This document shows, in pieces, positions 54,268 to 59,598 of a DNA stretch of 64,000 nucleotides. Position 1 is the first letter of the stretch; each line of letters begins with the position of its first letter. Origin of the DNA: Nitrosopumilus oxyclinae (GTDB lineage Archaea > Thermoproteota > Nitrososphaeria > Nitrososphaerales > Nitrosopumilaceae); NCBI RefSeq assembly GCF_013407165.1, contig NZ_CP026994.1, forward strand, positions 1,392,187 to 1,456,186, read 5' to 3'. A program made the translations under genes and the position numbers. The notes beneath the pieces are model-generated. The model was not told the DNA's origin. It ran no database searches and saw nothing but the letters and a program-made list of their open reading frames with translations.

Positions 54268-56919
54268 CTATCCAGAAGTACAACCACTGTATCCACATTC
54301 AATGCAGATACTACAACCCTCTACGAATACCAAGTTGTTTTTACATGTAGGACATAATTTGTCTTCAGAAACGGCTTCTACTTTTGGAGCCTCTAGTTGA
54401 ATTTCTTCATCATGTACTTTCAATTCCAATGAAGCATTGACTTGTGATTTGATGTATGGGTTTGTGATATTTTTGGTTACAAATGCAGTCATGAACTCAC
54501 TTGGTGAGACCTCAAAGATCTTTGTTGCATTCTCACTTGTCATATGAAGAACTTGTTTGTGTCTTGAACCATCACGATAAACAGTCATTCCTTTTAGACC
54601 AATTTCGTGTGCAAGTAGATATGCAGATTTTACATCTTCGACTGTTACATCATACGGCATATTGATTGTTTTTGCAATTGCATTTCCAATCCAATCTTGC
54701 CATACACCTTGAGCCATTAAATGATCAGCCCAATGGATATCCATTGCTGTAACAAAGACATCTTGCATCCATTGCGGGATTTCATCTAATCCTTTCAATG
54801 AACCATAATTGTCTGCAATCTTTTCAAGAATTTCATCTGTATAGAGACCTTCTTCTTTGAGTGCTTCTTCAAGAATCTTGTTTGTATAGAAGAATCTTCC
54901 AACAGTAACTCTCTTCTCAAACACTAAAGCAAATGCAGGTTCCATTCCGTTTGAACAGTCTGCAATCATAGATAGCGTTCCAGTTGGTGCTACTGTAGTA
55001 GTTAAGACATTTCTAATACCATGTTTTTTGATTTCTTCAATGAGTGGTTCCCATTCATATGAATGAGATTCTTTTGATTTCTCATAGTATCCAGATATTG
55101 GAATCTTTCCTTCAGGGTATTCTGTCTTTGCACAAAGTGGGAACTCACCACGAGATCTTGCTAGTGCAACACTTTCTTCCATTGAATAGTATGTTAGGGC
55201 TTCAGATAGTTTTGATTGTAGTTCATATCCTTCTTGTGAATTGTAAGGAATTTTCAATCTGTATAACAAATCTGCGACTCCCATTACACCAAGTCCAATT
55301 CTTCTAGACTCTTTTGAGGCTGTACTAATTTCTGGAACTGGATAATTATTTACATCAATGATGTTATCCAAAAATCTTGTTGTCTTTCTGATAATCTCTT
55401 CATATCCTTGCCAATCAAATTCATAGGAACCATCAGCTTGTCTTTTTGCAAGATTTACCAAATTGATTGAACCCAAGTTACATGATTCGTATGGATAGAG
55501 ACTTTGTTCACCACATGGATTTGTAGCTCTAAGTGGTGCTTGTCGTGCTTTAGCAAATACATTGTATTTGTTAATTTGATCAAAGAAGATCAAACCAGGT
55601 TCTGCGCTCTTCCATGCAGATAATGCAATTAGATCAATTAGTTGATGTGCATTGATTTCTTTTACAGGTTTTCTGTCACGTGGACTACGTAGGACATAGT
55701 TACCGTCAGTTGTATTTACAAGTGCATGCCAAAAGTCTTCCCAAATTCCAACACTTACATTGAAATTTTCTAAAACTCCGGCTTCAGTTTTGTTTGTGAT
55801 GAATTTTTCAACATCAGGATGCCATGCTTCAATGATTCCCATATTTGCTCCACGTCTTTTTCCACCCTGTTTTACAACTTCAGTGACTGTATTGATGATA
55901 TTCATGAAGGATACTGGACCAGATGCAACACCAGATGTTGATGCTACAATGTCACCCTCTTCACGAAGATTTGAGTAGTTAATTCCAACTCCACCACCAG
56001 ACTTGAAGATTAATGCTGCATCAGAAGTAGATTTCATAATTTCTTCCATGCCATCCTCCATACCAAGTACAAAGCATGCTGAGAGTTGTCCTAGTCTTCC
56101 TCCAGCATTCATCATGGTTGGTGAGTTTGGTAGGAAGTCTTGCCCAGTCATCATTGTAAAGTATTCAGTGATTTTATCTGCATAACTTTCTAGTTTTTTG
56201 CCTGCTAGCAATGTCAATAGATCTTTGAAACTTATTTTCATCTGACCTTTGTTTGCAAGAGTCACATAGTGAGTGATTAAAGATCTAAAATGCCATTTAT
56301 TGAAGAAATAATCTCCAACTTTGAATTTATAATCAAAGGCATCTAGTTTTTCAAGATAAGATTTTGCTTCATCTATATCCTGCTTGTTATTTCCGGATTT
56401 GTCAAAGATTTGTGAATCATATAACATATCACCAATTCCGACTAGAATTGCGACTCGCTCAAACATTTGTGTTGGTGATTCAATAATCTCACTTTTTGAA
56501 TTTCTAAATAGATATCTCGATGCTAATACTCTCAGACAGTTTAAATCGAATTTTTTAGAGACTGGATCGAGGGCTTTAAGATTTAAGACCTTCATTTTTT
56601 CGTCTCTTAATTTTCTTCTTTCATGTCTGTAAACGATGTATGCTTTTGCAATATCGCTATTACCGCTATCGATTAAAGTTGACTCTACAATATCTTGAAT
56701 ATCTTCAACTGTAGGTGCTCTAGAGCTTGTAAATCCTTGCTCTACTAACTTGTTAACTACATCTGCTGCTAGTTTGTCGGCAACGCCACGATCGGCTTTA
56801 GAGGTGGCTGCCAATGCCTGATATATGGCATTTGAAATTTTATCTTTATTGAAAGCCGTGACTGTGCCACTGCGCTTACGGATCTTATTGATCGTATTTT
56901 CTATTTGTGAATTGTCCAT
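54268..56919 (-). CDS. nrdJ: Adenosylcobalamin-dependent ribonucleotide reductase (class II)
   Basis: Makes dNTPs or dNDPs with a B12-generated radical and needs no oxygen. The 883-residue protein has an N-terminal ATP-cone (about 16-105, VTAFNKDKISNAI), SACFVLGMEDGMEEI near 277-291 (first active-site Cys), SGGGVGINYSNLR near 305-317, the NPCGEQ motif (thiyl Cys and Glu near 464), APTGTLSMIADCSNG near 638-652 and a C-terminal zinc-finger-like tail with CPTC, CSIC and CGYSGC (redox/metal). B12 synthesis is encoded at 19.9-24.1 kb. A fused HTH/NrdD-like gene lies just upstream. Confidence 0.96.
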   Translation of the reverse strand: MDNSQIENTINKIRKRSGTVTAFNKDKISNAIYQALAATSKADRGVADKLAADVVNKLVEQGFTSSRAPTVEDIQDIVESTLIDSGNSDIAKAYIVYRHERRKLRDEKMKVLNLKALDPVSKKFDLNCLRVLASRYLFRNSKSEIIESPTQMFERVAILVGIGDMLYDSQIFDKSGNNKQDIDEAKSYLEKLDAFDYKFKVGDYFFNKWHFRSLITHYVTLANKGQMKISFKDLLTLLAGKKLESYADKITEYFTMMTGQDFLPNSPTMMNAGGRLGQLSACFVLGMEDGMEEIMKSTSDAALIFKSGGGVGINYSNLREEGDIVASTSGVASGPVSFMNIINTVTEVVKQGGKRRGANMGIIEAWHPDVEKFITNKTEAGVLENFNVSVGIWEDFWHALVNTTDGNYVLRSPRDRKPVKEINAHQLIDLIALSAWKSAEPGLIFFDQINKYNVFAKARQAPLRATNPCGEQSLYPYESCNLGSINLVNLAKRQADGSYEFDWQGYEEIIRKTTRFLDNIIDVNNYPVPEISTASKESRRIGLGVMGVADLLYRLKIPYNSQEGYELQSKLSEALTYYSMEESVALARSRGEFPLCAKTEYPEGKIPISGYYEKSKESHSYEWEPLIEEIKKHGIRNVLTTTVAPTGTLSMIADCSNGMEPAFALVFEKRVTVGRFFYTNKILEEALKEEGLYTDEILEKIADNYGSLKGLDEIPQWMQDVFVTAMDIHWADHLMAQGVWQDWIGNAIAKTINMPYDVTVEDVKSAYLLAHEIGLKGMTVYRDGSRHKQVLHMTSENATKIFEVSPSEFMTAFVTKNITNPYIKSQVNASLELKVHDEEIQLEAPKVEAVSEDKLCPTCKNNLVFVEGCSICIECGYSGCTSG

Positions 56920-56952: not shown

Positions 56953-56966
56953 CTGTATAAACTGTT
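56953..56966 (-). promoter_or_regulatory. TATA box of nrdJ
   Basis: On the minus strand, AGTTTATACAG lies about 34-46 bases before the ATG at 56917-56919. A second AT-rich patch is absent, so this is the likely box. A GGGGAG run just before the start may be a ribosome site. Confidence 0.5.
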
Positions 56967-57004
56967 TGTCGGATTTTCCCAAAACTTTGATTCAATAAAA
57001 TTGA

Positions 57005-57024
57005 CAACGCTCCAATTTGCGTTG
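57005..57024. promoter_or_regulatory. Inverted repeat upstream of the nrdJ promoter
   Basis: CAACGC and GCGTTG are exact reverse complements separated by eight bases. They lie about 40 bases upstream of the nrdJ TATA box, in the usual place for an archaeal activator or a distal operator. Confidence 0.5.
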
Positions 57025-57078: not shown

Positions 57079-57089
57079 GCGATGATCGC
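57079..57089. promoter_or_regulatory. Palindrome GCGATGATCGC in the nrd intergenic region
   Basis: GCGAT-G-ATCGC is a perfect hyphenated palindrome about 64 bases downstream of the HTH/NrdD-like gene stop and 160 upstream of nrdJ. It could be a terminator remnant or an operator. It is G/C-rich compared with its surroundings. Confidence 0.45.
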
Positions 57090-57152: not shown

Positions 57153-59327
57153 TCAGACAACGTAAGGTGACTTACACTTTGGACATTTATCATCAAATGG
57201 TTCATCTTTGAATCCACACTCACCACAAATTGCAGTTGGTCTTACAGGTTTGAAAGAAGGTGTAAGCGTAGATGTTTTCTCTATTGCTTTTTTGATATCA
57301 TCAACTTTAGCGTCTTTGTCAATTTGTAAAGTTACAAGAAGACCTCCGTTGAGTATCTTTGAGAGTTTGTTAGATTCAACAATAACCGGACTTTTTGCAG
57401 TTAAATCAGAGACTTCTGAAGCATTAACTACAATACCTTGAGAATAGTAATCAGCATCCATAGAATTTAGGCTCGAGTTTTTACCGTATTTTTCACCATC
57501 AAGGGTTGCAAAACGGACAGAACCTTCAGTTTCAGTCATAGAAATGGCCACTGTGTCGCCTAATTCTTTGCCTTTTTTGGCACCAACATCAACTGCAGTT
57601 TCAATGACTTTGTTAAGAATATCTCGTCCTTCCTTGTTGTCTTGGAATCCAAGTATGTTAAAGACTGCTTCTTTGAGACCTACTAAATTCACAACAAGGG
57701 ATACAGAACTTCTCTGCATGTATTGTGTGTTCTTTGCTAAAATTGGATTAAGTCCTCTTCTAGTAAGATCTGAAATCTCTTTCTTTCTTAATGCCATAGA
57801 AGCCAAAGCTGGTTTCATCAACAAAGCAAGTCTTGCTCTAAAGTAAGTTTCATCTTTGTTTGATTCAAATGCTAATCTTGGAAGATTGATTGAAACAGAT
57901 TGTAAGGTTATTGAAAGAGGGCCAGATGTTTTAGTAGATCCATTAGTAATACCATAACTAGATGTTTGACCTTTAGCAAACATTACTTTTCCACCGATTG
58001 AAAGAATTTCAGCTACTGCTTGCGATACATCTGTAATCTTTCCTTTATCAGCATCAATTATCAAACCAATTTTTGGAATTGGTGTAATTTTTGTATAATT
58101 TTTGTATGCATTGATAATTGCTGTAATTATTTTTGTATCAGTTCCTAATTGTAAACGAATTGAAATGTTAGTACTATTTTTATTATATTTTGAAGTTGTT
58201 GATGAGGTTGCAAATGCATCAGTTAGTTTTTGTTCAAGTTCTGGAATAGATTTGGAATGTTTTGCAAACAATGGAACTAGTCCATCAAGAACAATTTCTT
58301 GTGAAGCTTCTTTTGATAAAAGAGCGATTACTACAGAGAGTGAACTTGTAATTTCATCTAGTTGTTTTGATGCAGAAATTCTTGATACATCAAGATATTT
58401 TCCTCCAAGATCAACTCCATCTTCAATCAATTCTTTAATGTTAACAAATATTGTATCAGGAATCATAGACCAAACACCAGGATTTGAAATGTGCAAGTCA
58501 CCAGAAAGATGTGAGTCTGCTACATCTTTAGGTAAAATATTTGTAAGAAGATGTTCAGCAAATACTCTTTGTCCTGTATTGAACAATAATCCCTCAGCAC
58601 CATTATCTACATCATCTAAATTAGAAATCATCTCTTGAACATCATAAACAGGCAGACCTAGGCGTGCTAGTTTGTTCCTGTATTCTTCATGTCCGTGCTC
58701 AAGAAGTACAGAATTAACCATTTCTCGAATTAATGCGCCTGTCAGATAGGTTGTTTGATATTTGTAAATTCTATTTTCAACTTCTTCAGTAATTTTTTGT
58801 GCTAGTTCTAGCGGAAGACTTCCTTCACGTACAAGTGATTGAATAATTTTATGGGAATTGAATTCTTCAATTGATTCAGATGATGTTCTAACATACATCT
58901 TTCCACTTTCAATAATTGATCTTTCTTCAATTTGTCTTGCTAAACTCAAAACAAGTTTTCCAAGATTTGTAATGGTGTAACGTCTTTCAGATTTATTTAA
59001 TGCAACAAGTGATTGTCTGAGTAATTTTCTCAAGTGGTATGCAAATTTTCCACTTTCTTTTTTTGATTTGAAACCAGCTAGGGATTTTAGTTCAGAATAA
59101 GTCAATGGGCCTTTAGAATTTAGGATTCTTAGGATATCAATTCTGTTTGGACTGGCCATGACAGAAAAGATCATTCTGACACGTTTTGAGGTGGATTGTA
59201 AGATTCCGCCTCTTTTTGGATCAGAGTCGTCTACGTCGTCATCTAGATCCATACCCAACTCAGAATCATCATCTAGTTCAGCACCAACATCTAGGTCTAA
59301 TTCCAAATCTTCCTCGGTTTGTTTCAC
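57153..59327 (-). CDS. Winged HTH + ATP-cone + catalytically dead class III ribonucleotide reductase fold (putative nrd regulator)
   Basis: A 724-residue fusion. Residues 5-37 are acidic. Residues 50-125 are an ArsR-type winged helix (MASPNRIDILRILNSKGPLT). Residues 143-225 are an ATP-cone (EEFNSHKIIQSL...REMVNSVLLEHG). Residues about 245-690 resemble anaerobic reductase NrdD: SGDLHISN at 276-282, NLPRLAF at 481-487, SMTETEGSVRFATLDGEKYG at 596-615, and NGGLLV near 668. The C-terminus is a zinc ribbon, CGEC and CPKC (Cys 701, 704, 715, 718). There is no cysteine elsewhere in the protein and no glycyl-radical loop after the zinc site, so thiyl and glycyl radical chemistry is impossible. I infer a dNTP/ATP-sensing transcription regulator of nrdJ. 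Confidence 0.88.
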   Translation of the reverse strand: MKQTEEDLELDLDVGAELDDDSELGMDLDDDVDDSDPKRGGILQSTSKRVRMIFSVMASPNRIDILRILNSKGPLTYSELKSLAGFKSKKESGKFAYHLRKLLRQSLVALNKSERRYTITNLGKLVLSLARQIEERSIIESGKMYVRTSSESIEEFNSHKIIQSLVREGSLPLELAQKITEEVENRIYKYQTTYLTGALIREMVNSVLLEHGHEEYRNKLARLGLPVYDVQEMISNLDDVDNGAEGLLFNTGQRVFAEHLLTNILPKDVADSHLSGDLHISNPGVWSMIPDTIFVNIKELIEDGVDLGGKYLDVSRISASKQLDEITSSLSVVIALLSKEASQEIVLDGLVPLFAKHSKSIPELEQKLTDAFATSSTTSKYNKNSTNISIRLQLGTDTKIITAIINAYKNYTKITPIPKIGLIIDADKGKITDVSQAVAEILSIGGKVMFAKGQTSSYGITNGSTKTSGPLSITLQSVSINLPRLAFESNKDETYFRARLALLMKPALASMALRKKEISDLTRRGLNPILAKNTQYMQRSSVSLVVNLVGLKEAVFNILGFQDNKEGRDILNKVIETAVDVGAKKGKELGDTVAISMTETEGSVRFATLDGEKYGKNSSLNSMDADYYSQGIVVNASEVSDLTAKSPVIVESNKLSKILNGGLLVTLQIDKDAKVDDIKKAIEKTSTLTPSFKPVRPTAICGECGFKDEPFDDKCPKCKSPYVV

Positions 59328-59436: not shown

Positions 59437-59598
59437 TTATTTTTCTTGGACATCAAGTGAAAATTCTGATGTAGAAAGTTTCTGTCCACATGACGGACAC
59501 TTTCCATTTGTTGGATTGAGTACGTCTTTTAGAGATTTTAACATCTTCATGTTTGTGATCTTTTCTCCGCATTTACCACATGTAATTTCAACTGACAT
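59437..59598 (-). CDS. Small zinc-ribbon protein
   Basis: Fifty-three residues, MSVEITCGKCGEKIT and so on, with CGKC near 7-10 and CPSCGQ near 34-39 forming one zinc ribbon. The body is helical between the knuckles. It resembles small archaeal ribbons that act in RNA or transcription complexes, but no family is certain. It lies 109 bases upstream of the HTH/NrdD-like start on the same strand. Confidence 0.75.
   Translation of the reverse strand: MSVEITCGKCGEKITNMKMLKSLKDVLNPTNGKCPSCGQKLSTSEFSLDVQEK

Follow-up and report, generated by a model that had tools for sequence, protein, structure and literature searches.

What is the function of a protein in which a winged helix, an ATP-cone, a class III ribonucleotide reductase core, and a zinc ribbon stand in one frame? 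The question is raised by a 724-amino-acid (aa) protein encoded in the 64,000-nucleotide stretch of Nitrosopumilus oxyclinae DNA analyzed here (the window). From the evidence below, the protein is probably a catalytically dead class III reductase that has become the sensing part of a transcription factor regulating the local reductase. The features of the locus are collected in Table 1.

Table 1. Features of the regulator-nrdJ locus. Positions are those of the window; wHTH, winged helix-turn-helix.
Feature	Position	Strand	Basis or remark
CDS, wHTH / ATP-cone / probably dead NrdD / zinc-ribbon protein	57153..59327	(-)	724 aa, GTG start
ArsR-type winged helix, aa 45-141	58905..59195	(-)	HTH_20, CzrA fold match, family identity
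ATP-cone, aa 143-232	58632..58901	(-)	PF03477 above cut-off; NrdR and PaNrdA cones; most conserved domain
Class III reductase-like barrel without catalytic residues, aa 240-690	57258..58610	(-)	Fold and alignment
Zinc ribbon CxxC..CxxC, aa 699-720	57168..57233	(-)	Cysteine positions and alignment
nrdJ, class II reductase with its own ATP-cone	54268..56919	(-)	Genome's only NrdA/NrdJ-type reductase barrel
Candidate operator GCGTTGTCAATTTTATTGA	56992..57010	(-)	Most conserved noncoding block before nrdJ; putative function
Putative TATA-like box of nrdJ	56956..56961	(-)	From sequence

An earlier note, made from the letters of the DNA, had proposed this domain order and suggested profile searches and superposition on NrdD as a check; both bear it out. 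In Pfam the protein scored above the cut-offs for NRDD (94.7 bits, best stretch aa 466 to 720), the ATP-cone PF03477 (34.1 bits, aa 144 to 216), HTH_20 (32.7 bits, aa 57 to 109), and DUF7347 (40.8 bits, aa 53 to 127). By sequence alone the whole protein had a weak match in the PDB (E 0.015), and fold comparison was needed. The AlphaFold model of the whole protein (pLDDT 80, pTM 0.68) gave class III reductases as its best matches, with 1h78 aligned at Z 29.6 and rmsd 3.0 over 443 residues; Foldseek matched it to 9dca, another class III reductase, at E 2e-21. The N-terminal 196 residues, modeled separately (pLDDT 86), resembled ArsR-type repressors in their first half and the ATP-cones of NrdR and reductases in their second half, and the top Foldseek row for this model was NrdR. 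Its winged helix superposed on CzrA at Z 12.8 and rmsd 1.8 over 89 residues, and a profile search with the winged helix led to HlyU and ArsR. The ATP-cone was found in all 22 of the aligned relatives. ArsR/SmtB-type repressors (CzrA, CadC, HlyU) have the same fold as aa 45 to 141, but their sensor is a metal or thiol site within the winged helix, whereas here the ATP-cone and the reductase body would do the sensing. Directly upstream of the gene, on the same strand, lies a 53-aa zinc-ribbon ORF (window 59437-59598, minus strand) that is kept across the family.

A search with the protein covered 200 genomes of the phylum and found relatives in 151, although the weakest of these matches may be ATP-cones alone. 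A broad alignment (A2) gave no searchable pattern. In the window's order, which presumably consists of ammonia oxidizers, a profile search found the gene in 85 of 87 good genomes and in 45 of 46 genera, nearly all at E < 1e-38. The relatives that carry names are mostly from Bathyarchaeota, plus one Njordarchaeum assembly, whose phylum we take to be Asgard; further members occur in the phylum of that assembly (the Asgard-type phylum).

The only cysteines of the 724-aa protein are at positions 701, 704, 715, and 718, the four zinc ligands, and the chain ends six residues past the last of them, so there is no glycyl-radical loop; on both points the first reading of the sequence was correct. We aligned the catalytic residues of 127 full-length family members with those of 12 working NrdDs whose genes adjoin relatives. 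The T4 NrdD residue numbers used here (C79, C290, N311, E446) are presumptive, assigned from the alignment and from general knowledge of NrdD. The equivalent of C79, the first catalytic cysteine, was present in 0 of 127 family members. The C290 site has a Cys, as a relic, in 23 of the 127, and in some members this relic reads GCR, which points to descent from an active NrdD. The N311 equivalent is kept in 126 of the 127, and each zinc cysteine is present in 124 to 125. All 12 adjoining NrdDs retain C79, C290, N311, and E446, and 11 of them have the radical Gly, the frame of the twelfth being cut short. The glycyl motif RVxGY is absent from the family alignment. A G does align at the glycyl column in some relatives, in other contexts (AKYAGR and similar) and not in RVTGY, and these candidates were rejected. 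In the Asgard-type set a few members have R-x-x-G near the C terminus, and none has C79. A catalytic Cys or Gly displaced to another site was looked for by alignment, and none was found in the window's order. The alignments confirm a predicted loss of catalysis that is family-wide and general, no oddity of a single genome.

The suggestion that the substrate pocket had been kept found no support: 127 of 127 family members have a gap in place of the NxN flap, and HxHD has another residue where its second His should be. In Prevotella NrdD the NxN flap and HxHD contact the substrate, and HxHD binds the triphosphate (PMC11226230). The family would not be expected to carry out radical chemistry or to bind substrate normally. 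The score of the protein against the NrdD equivalog TIGR02487 was 87.1 bits, versus a cut-off of 326.35, which is what would be expected of a nonenzyme. Compared with NrdD (TIGR02487, PF13597), the protein shares the barrel fold, the ATP-cone before the core, and the C-terminal zinc ribbon but lacks the catalytic cysteines, the glycyl loop, and the NxN flap and has gained a winged helix. Among the shorter members (L056 to L072, 535 to 650 aa) the core is eroded; often a NAC-like gene overlaps their end and an argF-like gene lies upstream.

Mean consensus in the family alignment was 72% for the ATP-cone, 60% for the winged helix, and 47% for the core. In 8 of 8 pairs tested from the window's family, winged-helix identity was 99 to 100% (dN ≤ 0.04). 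In the same comparison core identity fell to 56 to 66% in some pairs, in which synonymous sites were near saturation, and core dN rose to 0.33. By these comparisons constraint has shifted onto the regulatory head, a pattern characteristic of a DNA-binding sensor and not of an enzyme. Persistence of N311, and of the relic C290 in part of the family, might suggest that the protein still has some other enzymatic role, or that the gene is functionless and in decay. We give almost no credence to either, because the window protein has no cysteines beyond the zinc ligands, the substrate flap is lost, and strong constraint and near-universal presence exclude decay.

The genome (1.585 Mb, one contig) has a single NRDD gene, the one described here. 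It is followed, after a gap of 233 bp and on the same strand, by nrdJ. NrdR (TIGR00244) had no match in this genome at E 0.001, and a search for the activase NrdG gave two weak matches, both below the NrdG cut-off. NrdR has been reported to be rare in archaea (PMC9110341); it was above cut-off in 13 of the 200 phylum genomes, all belonging to one family (f3). These genomes, the only ones in the sample with a full NrdR, also have the dead reductase, and in the five f3 loci retrieved (L042, L044, L046, L050, and L051) no reductase adjoins the latter. Like the 724-aa protein, NrdR couples an ATP-cone to a DNA-binding domain and is linked to reductase genes of any class. In NrdR, however, an N-terminal zinc ribbon is followed by the ATP-cone, whereas the order here is winged helix, ATP-cone, reductase core, and zinc ribbon, and only here does a whole reductase fold stand behind the cone. 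Judged by its sequence, the protein is not a member of the NrdR family. It is best read as an independent counterpart of bacterial NrdR, both an ATP-cone nucleotide sensor and a transcription regulator acting on the local reductase; as a mode of action, the analogy to NrdR drawn in the earlier note appears to be well supported in this NrdR-free genome.

In 50 of the 51 loci read in the window's order, the regulator is followed directly by a same-strand reductase gene (49 by script plus L183, where the called frames overlap; the exception is L033), and the missing linkage that had been named as a reason for doubt was not encountered there. One genome of the window's family has no nrdJ neighbor. 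The claimed linkage to nrdJ is conserved in the window's order but is not specific to nrdJ, as there are four NrdD partner types, and pyrB is the commonest neighbor outside the order. The 41 regulator-reductase pairs fell into 7 partner groups, three NrdJ and four NrdD types (classes II and III), and partner type changed 9 times along the regulator tree; the groups were formed by single linkage at one threshold, 50% identity, and assembly errors are possible at single loci. At L173 and L182, for example, the regulators are 56% identical and the NrdJs 29% identical. Within one order (L165 to L184) there are at least three distant NrdJ types, about 26 to 41% identical to each other.

The regulators of L035 and L099 are 0.045 changes per column apart, and roughly 200 bp past the regulator, comprising a leader of about 90 bp and the start of a glutaredoxin gene, are nearly identical. 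The sequences diverge inside the glutaredoxin ORF and are followed by different nrdD genes. This pair is a natural swap experiment: the regulator and the leader stay and the enzyme changes. Exchange of the same-strand reductase next to a regulator that remains in place argues more strongly than any other finding for a functional link to the reductase itself, as opposed to a frozen gene order. In the Bathyarchaeia loci L035, L097, L103, L109, and L112, a glutaredoxin-like ORF of roughly 100 aa separates the dead nrdD from the live one; at L099 it is cut off where the different nrdD starts.

These exchanges also bear on the idea that the protein is a regulatory pseudoenzyme, an allosteric partner that binds the active reductase protein and uses its winged helix for protein-protein contacts or localization. 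Retention of the reductase fold and zinc ribbon and the position of the gene beside that of the enzyme would suit such a partner. We nevertheless regard it as highly improbable: the partners fall into seven groups from two unrelated classes, conservation is higher in the winged helix than in the core, and the promoter contains a conserved element.

Outside the window's order we counted neighbors at the 68 loci that had 3 kb of sequence downstream. A downstream reductase was present in 12 (10 NrdD and 2 NrdJ). The commonest neighbor was a convergent pyrB/argF-like gene, found in 43 of the 68, and 38 of these 43 had no reductase. In the Asgard-type phylum such a neighbor was found at 10 of 16 loci, and the loci read there had pyrB and no reductase. 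At L036, L037, L074, L207 to L213, and others, in Bathyarchaeia and the Asgard-type phylum, pyrB converges on the dead reductase gene, often with pyrI beyond it. These frequencies, together with a winged-helix identity that suits a regulator of many sites, favor a nucleotide-sensing transcription factor that acts mainly, or acted ancestrally, on pyrimidine synthesis (pyrB/pyrI) or on a broader regulon of nucleotide and replication genes, the reductase being only one of its targets. We consider this unlikely, though less so than the partner-protein idea, because a convergent pyrB shares no promoter region with the regulator, and the same-strand downstream gene is a reductase both in the window's order and at every swapped locus.

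If the protein regulates the local reductase, as we prefer, the region before nrdJ might hold its site. The GCGTTGTCAATTTTATTGA block sits 30 bp upstream of the TATA-like box of nrdJ (conservation 0.80 versus a mean of 0.60), and the left half-site of this element was found in 26 of 28 relatives, versus 1.2 in shuffles. The degenerate element matches the genome exactly once; allowing one mismatch gave 7 sites, versus 4 for the reversed control. The block is a putative binding site of the regulator. Other candidates did not hold. An operator of the TGATCAAAAAT type, shared before both genes and good by eye, had no genome match at 3 mismatches. The GCGATCATCGC palindrome (57079-57089) was not significant within the window alone. 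The 100% identity of the winged helix hints at more than one target, though the nrdJ element occurs once in the genome. The pyrB neighborhood seen beyond the order, and a winged helix more strictly conserved than a single operator would require, make a wider nucleotide regulon possible.

We infer DNA binding, the ligand, and the sign of control, which would fit together as follows. The protein would be dimeric, like NrdD, and ATP or dATP in the ATP-cone would alter the oligomer or the spacing of the two winged helices. One of these states would bind the conserved element upstream of the TATA box of nrdJ and change transcription of the local reductase. By analogy with NrdR, repression at high dATP would be the likelier sign. 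When the reductase at the locus is swapped for one of another class or type, the regulator and leader remain, so control would be kept.

In the open-licence literature we found no published description of this fusion protein, and we found no account of the control of reductase genes in archaea that have no NrdR. In two broad RNR family papers the term helix-turn-helix is absent, and archaeal members are not discussed under the terms sought.

The protein is a candidate for a near-universal regulator in one archaeal order, and a specific promoter element can be named for it. It also offers a clear example of an enzyme fold that has become the likely sensor of its own pathway. There is about an even chance that it represents something broader: an ancient archaeal transcription factor family derived from a whole dead reductase, extending from the window's order to Bathyarchaeia and the Asgard-type phylum. 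Such a family would sense (d)NTPs and control whichever class of reductase holds the locus, so that gene transfer could replace one reductase with another while regulation persisted.
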